NCBI GenBank assembly: GCA_025353105.1
Contig: JANXRG010000083.1
Location: 1 to 45,574, forward strand
Length of the DNA: 45,574 bases
Direction of reading: 5' to 3'
DNA from: Verrucomicrobiota bacterium
GTDB taxonomy: Bacteria; Verrucomicrobiota; Verrucomicrobiia; Chthoniobacterales; SZAS-18
Position 1 is the stretch's first letter; each line of letters starts with the position of its first letter. The position numbers were made by a program, and so were the translations under genes. The notes beneath the pieces are model-generated. The model had not been told where the DNA came from. It did not search any database and was given only the letters and a program-made list of their open reading frames with translations. Shown piece after piece: positions 25,348-32,338 of this stretch.

Positions 25348-25818
25348 ATGTCCCGTCGTCGCCAGACCATTCATAAGACCGAGAAGCTCGATTCGCGTTA
25401 TGCGAGTCCGCTCGTCTCGCGTTTGATCAGCACCGTCATGAAAGGCGGCAAGAAGTCGCTCGCGGAACGCATCGTCTACACCGCGATCGAAAAGAGCCGT
25501 GAGGGCTCGGATGCGGTCGACCCGCTCGAAATTCTCAATAAGGCGATCGAGAACACGAAGCCGCGCCTTGAAGTGAAGTCCCGCCGCGTCGGCGGTGCGA
25601 CCTACCAGGTGCCGGTGGAAATCGCGCCCGATCGCCAGCTCGCGCTTGCGATGCGGTGGATTGTCGGTTTCGCCGTGAAGCGCAAGGGCGGCCTCACCCG
25701 GGGACTCGCCTCCGAGCTCAAGGAAGCCGCCGCCGGCCAGGGTAACGCGATCAAGAAGCGTGACGACACGCATCGCATGGCCCAAGCCAACCGCGCCTTC
25801 GCCCACTTCCGCTACTAA
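25348..25818 (+). CDS. rpsG: 30S ribosomal protein S7
   Basis: A 156-aa protein that nucleates the head of the small subunit. MSRRRQTIHK is the usual start; NKAIENTKPRLEVKSRRVGGATYQVP is the family's signature. The upstream sequence CCGCTCTTTCCC is pyrimidine-rich and has no Shine-Dalgarno match. It sits 40 bp after rpsL and 71 bp before fusA. Confidence 0.98.
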   Translation: MSRRRQTIHKTEKLDSRYASPLVSRLISTVMKGGKKSLAERIVYTAIEKSREGSDAVDPLEILNKAIENTKPRLEVKSRRVGGATYQVPVEIAPDRQLALAMRWIVGFAVKRKGGLTRGLASELKEAAAGQGNAIKKRDDTHRMAQANRAFAHFRY

Positions 25819-25889
25819 AGCGGCCCGCCCGATGGCCGCAGTCCGCTGCGGCCGCCCGTTCTTTTTTCAACGCCAACCCCGAAGTCATT

Positions 25890-28067
25890 ATGTCCGCCAC
25901 CCTGGAAGCCAAGACCGCGACGAAGAATCCGAATTCCCCGGATCGCGCGTTCCCGCTTGAGCGTACGCGAAACATCGGCATCGCGGCCCACATCGACGCC
26001 GGCAAGACGACGCTGACCGAGCGCATCCTTTTTTACACCGGCATGATCCATCGGATCGGCGAGGTGCATGATGGCAACACCGTGACCGACTGGATGGAGC
26101 AGGAGCGCGAGCGCGGCATCACGATCACCTCCGCGGCGACGACCTGCAGCTGGACGCAGCGTCCGGAAGAAGGCGTGTTCAAGCTTTACGACGGCCTCAA
26201 GCAGCGCATCAACATCATCGACACCCCCGGCCACGTGGACTTCACGGCCGAGGTGGAGCGTTCGCTGCGCGTGCTCGACGGCGCCATCGGCGTCTTCTGC
26301 GCCGTCGCGGGCGTGCAGCCGCAATCCGAAACCGTCTGGCGGCAGATGACCAAGTACAACGTCCCGCGCATCGCGTTCGTCAACAAGATGGACCGCGTCG
26401 GCGCGAGTTTTGAAAACGCGATCAATGACATGCGCACCAAGCTGCATGCCAACGCGTGGCCGATTTTGATTCCGCTCGGCAAGGAGGATTACCTCAAGGG
26501 CCAGCTCGACGTGATCAATAATAAAGCGATCATTTACGCCGACGACGCAAGTTCGGGCTCGACGTATTCGGTCGAGGAGATTCCCGCCGAGCACCAGGCG
26601 ATGGTCACCAAGGCATTCAGTGATCTCGTGACCGCAATTTCCGACCTTGACGACGAAATCGGCATGGCGTTTCTCGAGGAGAAGCCCATCACGAAAGAGA
26701 TGCTCAAGGCCGGCATCCGCCGCCAGACCATTGCGAACAAGTTTGTGCCGGTCGTCGGTGGGTCCGCCTTCAAGAACAAGGGGGTGCAGTACCTCGTCGA
26801 CGCGGTCGTCGATTACCTGCCGAGCCCGATCGAAATTCCGCCGCAGGAGGCCCATGATCCGGATGACCTGGAGACGAAGATCCCCATGCCTCCGGACGAC
26901 AACGGAAAATTCTGCTCGCTGGCGTTCAAGCTCTGGAGCGATCCCTTTGTCGGCAAGCTCGTCTTCTTCCGCGTCTATTCCGGCAAGCTGACGAAGGGCG
27001 ATACGGTTTATAATCCCCGCACGAACAAGCGCGAGCGCATCAGCCGGCTCATCCAGATTCAGGCCGACAAGCGCCTCGACATCGACACGTGCTACTCGGG
27101 CGACATCGCCGCGATCGTCGGCATCAAGAATATCACGACGGGCGACACGCTCTGCGACGAGGATCATCCCATCCTGCTTGAGCCGCCGTCGTTCCCCGAT
27201 CCCGTCATCAGCATGGCGATCGAGCCGAAGACCAAGGTCGATCAGGAAAAGATGGGTAACGCGCTTCAGCGCCTCGCCGAGGAAGATCCGACGTTCCGCG
27301 TGCACACGAACGAAGACACCGGCCAGACGATCATCGCGGGCATGGGCGAGCTTCACCTGGAAATCATCCGTGATCGCATGAAGCGCGAGTTCAGCGTCGA
27401 GACCAACGCGGGCAAACCGCAGATCGCCTACCGCGAAACGATTTTGAAGTCCGCCCACGGCGTCGGCAAGCTCATCAAGCAGTCCGGCGGTCGCGGTCAG
27501 TACGGCCACGTCGAGGTCGACGTCCGTCCCGCGGCGCGCGGCAAGGGTCTCACCGTGGACAACAAGGTCGTCGGCGGCGTCATTCCCAAGGAATACATCC
27601 CGGCGGTCAAAAAGGGCATCGAAGAGGCCGTGCTCAACGGCGTGGTCGGCGGGTATCCCGTCATCGACGTCGAAGTCGACATCGTCTACGGCAGCTACCA
27701 CGACGTCGATTCGAACGAACTCGCCTTCAAGATGGCTGCGATCTTCGCGGTAAAGGACGCGTTCAAACACGCCAATGCGATCCTGCTCGAGCCGATCATG
27801 AAGGTCGAGAATTCGGTGCCCGAGGAATATCAGGGCGACATCATGGGCGACCTCAACCGCCGCCGTGGCCGCATCAACGGGATCGAGAGCAAGAATGGCC
27901 TGAGCATCGTGAACGCCGAGGTTCCGCTCGCGGAAATGTTCGGCTACGCGACCGCCATTCGTTCGCTGTCCAAGGGACGCTCCAGTTATTCGATGGAACC
28001 CAGCCACTTCGAGCAGGTGCCCGCCCAGGTGCTCGCCGAAGTGCTCGACAAAAAAGGCGACAAGTAA
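25890..28067 (+). CDS. fusA: translation elongation factor G
   Basis: A 725-aa GTPase that drives ribosomal translocation, slightly longer than the usual 690-705. The GTPase motifs are in order: AHIDAGKTT (G1), [13 protein letters not shown] (G2), DTPGHVDF (G3), NKMD (G4) and GSAFKNKG (G5). Domain IV is represented by [11 protein letters not shown] and ends with the usual [13 protein letters not shown]. tuf, which follows fusA in many bacteria, is not here; rpsJ comes next after 42 bp. Confidence 0.98.
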
Positions 28068-28109
28068 GCGCGCCGCTCCAGTCAACCTTTCACTTCTTCG
28101 CCTCCTTCC

Positions 28110-28421
28110 ATGACCACCGGCCAACGCATTCGCATCCGCCTCAAAGGTTTCGACCATCGGATGCTCGATCAGTCCAGCCTCGACATCGTCGAGACCGCCA
28201 AGCGCACGGGCGCCAAGGTCTCCGGTCCAATTCCGCTGCCGACGCGCATCGAGCGCTTCACGGTGAATCGCTCCCCGCACGTCGACAAGAAGAGCATGGA
28301 GCAGTTCGAAATCCGCACGCACAAGCGCCTGCTCGACATCATCGAGCCGACCGCGAAGACGGTGGATGAGCTCCGCAAATTAAACCTGCCGGCCGGCGTC
28401 GACATCTCCATCAAGATCTGA
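28110..28421 (+). CDS. rpsJ: 30S ribosomal protein S10
   Basis: A 103-aa protein of the small-subunit head and, in other bacteria, a partner of NusB in antitermination. [16 protein letters not shown] and [24 protein letters not shown] are diagnostic. This is the first gene of the classical S10 operon, joined here directly to the str genes. The 107 bp between it and rplC show no gene. The leader CTTCGCCTCCTTCC lacks a Shine-Dalgarno sequence. Confidence 0.98.
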
Positions 28422-31072: not shown

Positions 31073-31351
31073 ATGGGAAGATCGTTGAAAAAGGGCCCCT
31101 TCGTTGAGGGCCATCTGCTCGAGAAAATCGAGAAGCTAAACAAGGAAAACTCGAAGAAGGCGATCAAGACCTGGTCGCGCCGCTCGATGATCGTGCCCGA
31201 TTTCGTCGGCCACACTTTCCTCGTCCACAACGGCAAAATCTTCAATTCGGTTTTCGTCACCGAGAACATGGTGGGCCACAAGCTCGGCGAGTTTTCCCCG
31301 ACCCGAACCTTCAAGAAGCATGGCGCACACACCGCGAAGGTCGCGAAGTAG
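31073..31351 (+). CDS. rpsS: 30S ribosomal protein S19
   Basis: A 92-aa protein of the small-subunit head. [19 protein letters not shown] and [18 protein letters not shown] are typical. It is followed not by rplV directly, as is usual, but by a 552-bp gap. The leader GTTTAAAGTCCT has no clear Shine-Dalgarno sequence. Confidence 0.98.
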
Positions 31352-31903
31352 TTCGTCCCCGAAATCCCCCCCGTCCCACCCCAGAATTTTCCCGGAGGAT
31401 CCCTGAATTCCCAAGGTGCCGCACCCGCGGCGCCCGGAGACAAACCAAGCGAATCAACCCCGGACCGCGCGCACGTTATGAGTCGCATCGTCCCCCCAGG
31501 CGAAAGATCGAGAGCCGATGCTGTTTGTCGCGCTCCATGCTTCCGCCGCTCGCCCTGGCAAGTCCGGGGCCGGAGGTGCCCACCGAAAGGTACTGGATCT
31601 AAAGTTGCCCAAGTCCCGCGTCCTTTCTGGCGGTGACGAAACGCAAAAGATTGTTGGAAAGCTTGTCGTCGGAACCGGAGCAGCGCTTCGTTTCCCCGCG
31701 GGTGCCGCCCAGCTTCGATCCCCGGCCGCCCCGCTTGTCTGCCGCGCCTTTCCGGCCATCGGGTCGAGGCCGGAACCCGGGTTGATTCCTGATGATTGTC
31801 CGGTTCCGACCGGAAAAATTCTCAAGATTTTAGAAGAAACTTTTTCAAATCCGATTACCTTCCCGGCCCTCTATTGCCTCCGCCTCACCCGACCCATCTG
31901 ATC
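31352..31903 (+). other. 552-bp gap inside the S10 gene cluster
   Basis: No recognisable gene lies between rpsS and rplV, although neighbours elsewhere in the operon are mostly 13-110 bp apart. A forward frame at 31518-31901 (127 codons) ends 2 bp before the rplV start, but its peptide resembles no family and its codon third positions are not clearly GC-biased as in the real genes. The last 110 bp are AT-rich and contain a small hairpin, TCCGGT-TCCG-ACCGGA (31799-31814), followed by A/T runs. The stretch could hold an internal promoter, a regulatory leader RNA, or a fast-evolving small gene. Confidence 0.5.
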
Positions 31904-32338
31904 ATGGAAGTCCGCTCCCTTTATAAATACGCCCGCATGTCGCCTTTCAAGGTGCGGGAACTCACCCGGGAAATCCAGGGCCTCCCGGCCTCGGAGGCGC
32001 TGGACATCATCAATTTCAGCCCGTTGAAGGCCTCGCGCCTCGTCGGCCAGACGCTGCGCAGCGCCATCGCGAACGCGGAGAACAACCACAACCTCGAAGT
32101 CGCGAAATTGATGATCAAGGAAGCGACCGTGGGCGAGGGCCCGACGCTCAAGCGCATCATGCCACGCGCGCGCGGCAGCGCGAGTCCGATCCGGAAGCGC
32201 ACCAGCCACATCAAGATCATCCTCACCGACGAACTCGAACTCCCGCTCCGGGGCAAAGCCCGCCGCGACGCGAAACTGACCGCCGCCAAGGCGCGCCGCG
32301 ATGCGCGCAAGCCGAAGACGACCAAAACCGCCGCCTGA
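31904..32338 (+). CDS. rplV: 50S ribosomal protein L22
   Basis: A 144-aa tunnel protein. YKYARMSPFKVRELTREIQG and LKRIMPRARGSASPIRKRTSHIKI are the family's N-terminal and loop blocks. The C-terminus is extended by about 30 basic residues (KARRDAKLTAAKARRDARKP). The ATG at 31904 starts the conserved part; the frame is open further upstream in the gap, but that peptide is not L22-like. Confidence 0.96.
   Translation: MEVRSLYKYARMSPFKVRELTREIQGLPASEALDIINFSPLKASRLVGQTLRSAIANAENNHNLEVAKLMIKEATVGEGPTLKRIMPRARGSASPIRKRTSHIKIILTDELELPLRGKARRDAKLTAAKARRDARKPKTTKTAA

Follow-up and report, generated by a model that had tools for sequence, protein, structure and literature searches.

An Apparent Gene Loss and a Candidate rplV Promoter in the rpsS–rplV Gap of a Verrucomicrobiota Bacterium

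The rpsS–rplV interval

The window, that is, the whole 45,574-nt stretch of DNA analysed here, is one contig of a draft genome of 121 contigs, and the continuity of the sequence across the interval described below depends on the assembly. Within the S10 cluster, rpsS closes the upstream half and rplV opens the downstream half, with a spacing of exactly 552 bp between them (31352–31903, window coordinates). The features of the interval and its flanks are as follows.

31073–31351, + strand: rpsS, a 92-aa ORF with 72–88% identity to the rpsS of relatives; last gene of the S10 cluster's upstream half
31352–31812, no strand assigned: non-conserved, non-coding stretch at the site of the relatives' coiled-coil gene; no remnant detectable
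31518–31901, + strand: 127-codon frame with an ATG start, judged not to be a gene
31799–31814, + strand: small hairpin, TCCGGT-TCCG-ACCGGA, noted earlier; no T run follows, and it is not a terminator
31813–31903, + strand: genus-conserved AT-rich block, proposed as the promoter region plus 5′ leader of an rplV–spc transcription unit
31834–31839, + strand: AAGAAA, at the −35 position with 16-nt spacing; non-consensus and weak
31851–31871, + strand: 21-nt element CCGATTACCTTCCCGGCCCTC, identical to a sequence of this genome that starts 29 nt before rplK
31856–31861, + strand: proposed −10 hexamer TACCTT (TAnnnT), with T1, A2, and T6 kept in all three members of the genus
31862–31869, + strand: proposed G+C-rich discriminator CCCGGCCC, common to the regions upstream of rplK, rpsN, rplM, rpsA, aspS, and tig in the genus
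31904–32338, + strand: rplV, an ORF with 77% and 65% identity to two congeners; start of the downstream half

The first-pass annotation of this DNA described a 552-bp break in the cluster, and its boundaries are confirmed by the end of rpsS at 31351 and the start of rplV at 31904. The other features that it listed are likewise present: a small hairpin, starting at 31799; a 127-codon frame, at 31518–31901, that stops 2 bp before the rplV ATG; and an AT-rich end before rplV, the AT content being 60–72% between positions −100 and −50 with respect to rplV and 20–28% just upstream of that. The premise that the two genes usually lie almost side by side is true of the sampled Clostridia (9–80 bp) and of one family of the same order (9–28 bp) but fails for the phylum generally, in which intervals of 540–1060 bp with a gene are common. 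The gap is not an anomaly of an otherwise tight cluster; the site is one that normally bears a gene in the phylum.

A repeat or mobile-element insertion was considered as the origin of the gap and rejected, since the gap DNA occurs only once in the genome and contains only two short direct-repeat families. A terminator scan found none after rpsS.

The gene at the rpsS–rplV site in relatives

A search for rpsS succeeded in 52 of 57 relatives. A same-strand ORF, mostly of 240–315 aa, lies between rpsS and rplV in 39 of the 48 other same-order genomes in which a single contig bears both genes, the 39 including a doubtful 180-aa ORF (L022) with only a weak profile match. The nine genomes without the intervening gene are six of one family, with intervals of 9–28 bp, G050, with 9 bp, and two genomes of 0.9 Mb, with rpsS–rplV gaps of 148 and 313 bp. 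These losses are independent of the one proposed for the genome studied here. Phylum-wide, where the count was of same-strand profile matches starting at most 640 bp from the rpsS match, 35 of 110 genomes have a match just after rpsS. Loci with the family in the rpsS–rplV gap are L003–L031, L057–L075, and L137–L156. Records labelled Prosthecobacter, Chthoniobacterales, and Opitutae are among the named examples. The Opitutae have a shorter version, of about 112 aa, and its profile aligns with the family's C-terminal domain (hhalign probability 94.9, E 4.6e-8). Weak profile relatives also occur elsewhere in genomes that lack the gene at the rpsS–rplV site (L157–L161); these may be paralogues or convergent coiled coils.

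Besides an N-terminus judged by eye to be hydrophobic, the protein has a long coiled coil, and its C-terminal domain is conserved and bears the motif GVKxGMPxxVxR...VVDVR. Going by that N-terminus, it is probably exported. Searches of Pfam, NCBIfam, and PDB sequences gave no convincing match to the family; FlgT_C is a weak Pfam hit (E = 0.041), below the Pfam threshold. The structure prediction for the full-length protein is poor (pLDDT 66), and its fold matches are generic. For the C-terminal domain alone, 84 aa, the prediction (pLDDT 91) is a six-strand β-domain that resembles the C-terminal domain of FlgT (3w1e, TM 0.75 on the query), although the identity between the two is only about 20%. 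Because the six-strand barrels of F1-ATPase match the predicted β-domain almost equally well, the resemblance to FlgT is generic. No papers on this intergenic family or on its site were found among the open-access papers searched, and, within that scope, the phylum-wide family appears to be undescribed.

Absence of the gene from this genome

The site that the gene occupies in 39 of the 48 relatives is without it here. Single-protein and profile searches of the whole genome found no match elsewhere, and a six-frame profile search of the gap (hmmsearch --max) found none there. A degraded remnant in the gap was also considered and rejected: the six-frame search was negative, and so was a frameshift-tolerant profile search, with scores of 14.3 (+ strand) and 16.6 (− strand) against a null of 15.5 (sd 1.9). 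In controls, the remnant test loses sensitivity past about 25–30% substitutions, and an older pseudogene would be missed. In nucleotide comparisons with relatives, 31352–31812 has no match, and only the block next to rplV aligned. As judged by these searches, the genome has lost the gene.

The two congeners available, G001 and G002, both retain it. In G002, it follows rpsS, and rplV is on a different contig. In G001, it precedes rplV, with other genes upstream, and a fragment of rpsS is on a different contig. Thus placed, the S10 cluster appears to be broken at the rpsS|rplV site in both of these fragmented drafts; the breaks may be partly assembly artefacts, as contigs end inside rpsS and 280 bp before rplV. 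Right after the coiled-coil gene of G002, at the position expected for rplV, there is a convergent ORF that was named by eye as PIN-like (L033:5187–5570).

The conserved block before rplV

The last ~90 bp of the gap are of a different character. Local alignment of 31813–31903 gave a score of 32 with G001 (null 10.8, maximum 20) and a score of 20 with G002 (null 10.0, maximum 19), the nulls being from 1000 shuffles per congener. Relatives of the same family and order that still have the gene at the site give background scores, and the conservation is limited to the three congeners.

The putative −10 and discriminator before rplV read TACCTT-CCCGGCCC here, TAACTT-CCCGGCCC in G001, and TACTGT-CCCGACCC in G002. 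At the −35 position there is AAGAAA here and AGGAAA in G001, neither of which matches TTGnnn, and TTGCGA in G002. A strict sigma-70 scan called no promoter here. An extra promoter had been one of three options raised for the gap, and it is the one that gains support, from a block present in three congeners whose −10 and discriminator are common to the putative promoters of other ribosomal-protein genes. We suggest that this end of the gap most likely serves the rplV–spc half of the cluster as a growth-type promoter.

The motif across the genus

Searching the genome with the rplV block located the match of the CCGATTACCTTCCCGGCCCTC region upstream of rplK. The derived pattern, TANNNTCCCGGCCC, has 22 distinct hits in three genus genomes. 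Eight immediately precede ribosomal-protein genes (rpsN, rplK twice, rpsA, rplV twice, and rplM twice), and three more are upstream of tig (twice) and aspS, the downstream genes having been named by eye from translations. The reversed control pattern gave 0–2 hits per strand and genome. When the three hits that had suggested the pattern are set aside, 5 of 19 precede ribosomal-protein genes, for a binomial P of about 3e-5 against an assumed background of 2%. Clean −35 boxes at 16 nt are found for some of the hits, namely TTGACA (rplM of G002), TTGACG (rplM), and TTGCAA (rplK of the genome studied here). Within the window, the region upstream of rpsL, read by eye, has TTGCAC-16-TAGTTT followed by CTGCGCCCC. 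We regard TAnnnT-CCCGGCCC, seen upstream of ribosomal and translation genes at L203, L209, L212, L215, L217, L229, L234, L248, and L250, as a candidate growth-type promoter signature of the genus.

The start of rplK is present on two contigs of the genome (C83:5403–5416 and C87:94–107 of G000), each time near a contig end. The doubling is probably an assembly overlap and not two genes.

The arrangement is like that of sigma-70 promoters of the E. coli rrnB P1 type in that a TAnnnT −10 is directly followed by a G+C-rich stretch and precedes genes for ribosomal proteins and translation. It is unlike them in that the promoter here is defined by sequence alone and in one genus, and the −35 of rplV is non-consensus. 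In E. coli, the G+C-rich discriminator makes initiation at rrnB P1 sensitive to ppGpp (PMC7483510). By analogy, the putative rplV promoter may be ppGpp-sensitive as well.

A proposal for the gap

Comparison shows that most relatives have the coiled-coil gene and that this genome does not; it also shows that the block before rplV is conserved in the genus and common to the upstream regions of other ribosomal-protein genes. We consider it probable that the gap is the product of a gene loss together with a genus-conserved rplV promoter that starts a separate rplV–spc transcript. In this proposal, the gene carried by relatives between rpsS and rplV has been lost in this lineage, leaving about 460 bp of unconserved DNA. 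On sequence evidence that is strong, the last ~90 bp would hold a promoter, with −10 TACCTT and the CCCGGCCC discriminator, of the type that the genus has in front of genes for ribosomal proteins and translation. A separate rplV–rpsC–...–spc transcript would then be tied to growth rate independently of the rpsJ–rpsS half. We infer that the block serves as the promoter of the rplV–spc half, keeping its growth regulation and making the link to rpsS dispensable. Because the rplV half would have an independent promoter, the physical link between the halves could be dispensed with, which would fit the broken clusters of both congeners.

Ribosomal-protein clusters are divided into separately transcribed halves in other bacteria, and the split proposed here resembles them. 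It differs from the internal promoters and split S10–spc clusters of other bacteria in its position, rpsS|rplV, which is the site of a lost phylum-specific gene.

Alternative readings

Each of the other readings considered accounts for a part of the gap. That it encodes a lineage-specific small protein (31518–31901), translationally coupled to rplV and replacing the lost gene, is suggested by the 127 open codons, by the stop 2 bp before rplV, and by a codon use that outscores the other two + frames. The length of the frame is no greater than chance, however: a frame of at least 127 codons is reached in 14.7% of dinucleotide shuffles on the + strand and in 28.7% on either strand. The codon score, from a training set of real genes only, is −0.11, lower than in all 49 chunks of 127 codons from real genes (mean 0.42) and, at the 69th percentile among wrong-frame chunks, typical of these. 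It has no homologue in 57 genomes, the two congeners included, and no Pfam match, and its final part overlaps the promoter-like block. The idea of an undescribed small protein, with chance length, non-coding codon use, and homologues in 0 of 57 genomes, is highly improbable. We give similarly little credence to a structured regulatory RNA, e.g., a ribosomal-protein leader controlling rplV. The last 150 nt do fold somewhat beyond their shuffles (z = −2.2, 5/200 shuffles), but the z-scores across the rest of the gap run from −1.1 to +0.6, and a start near 31868, if real, would leave most of that 150-nt fold outside the rplV mRNA. Rfam has no match to the gap at the gathering score, the one sub-threshold hit being at chance level (15.3 bits, where the gathering score is 65.3; E = 0.56). 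In the comparison for covarying structure, which had only three usable congener sequences, the consensus fold is weak, and most of its pairs are broken or gapped in at least one of them.

The two remaining readings dispense with a function or with the gap itself. If nothing in the interval were functional, it would be DNA decayed after the gene loss, with rplV supplied by read-through from rpsS. The lack of conservation and of coding signal in 31352–31812 agrees with this, as does the occurrence elsewhere in the order of gene loss with short leftovers. It is the last ~90 bp, conserved in the genus and matching sequences upstream of other ribosomal-protein genes, that make this reading improbable. 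An assembly artefact joining two separate cluster halves would be in keeping with the congeners, in both of which the halves are apparently on different contigs with other neighbours; yet the gene order is ancestral on both sides of the gap, the gap contains no N, the ratings of the genome are 97.6% for completeness and 0.04% for contamination, and, in any case, the block on the rplV side is conserved. An artefact is very unlikely.

Wider significance

By the reading that we prefer, the gap arose in an ordinary way, from the loss of a gene and the presence of an internal promoter, and internal promoters are already known from ribosomal-protein clusters. It leads, however, to a protein family that appears to be undescribed and that is encoded, phylum-wide, within the best-conserved bacterial gene cluster. 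We tentatively raise a broader possibility, to which we give somewhat less than even chances: the S10 cluster would long have borne, phylum-wide, an undescribed exported coiled-coil/β-barrel protein, an envelope component made in step with ribosomes, and the window would show its natural knock-out, in a genus whose rplV acquired a growth-type promoter of its own and whose cluster could then come apart. The genus also provides a case where the acquisition of a promoter may have preceded the break-up of the S10 cluster. No transcription-start map for this group was found among the open-access papers searched, and TAnnnT-CCCGGCCC offers a candidate sequence signature for its growth-type promoters.

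Elsewhere in the window, an 835-codon open frame lies antisense to fusA (25815–28322, − strand); it looks like a codon-bias artefact.
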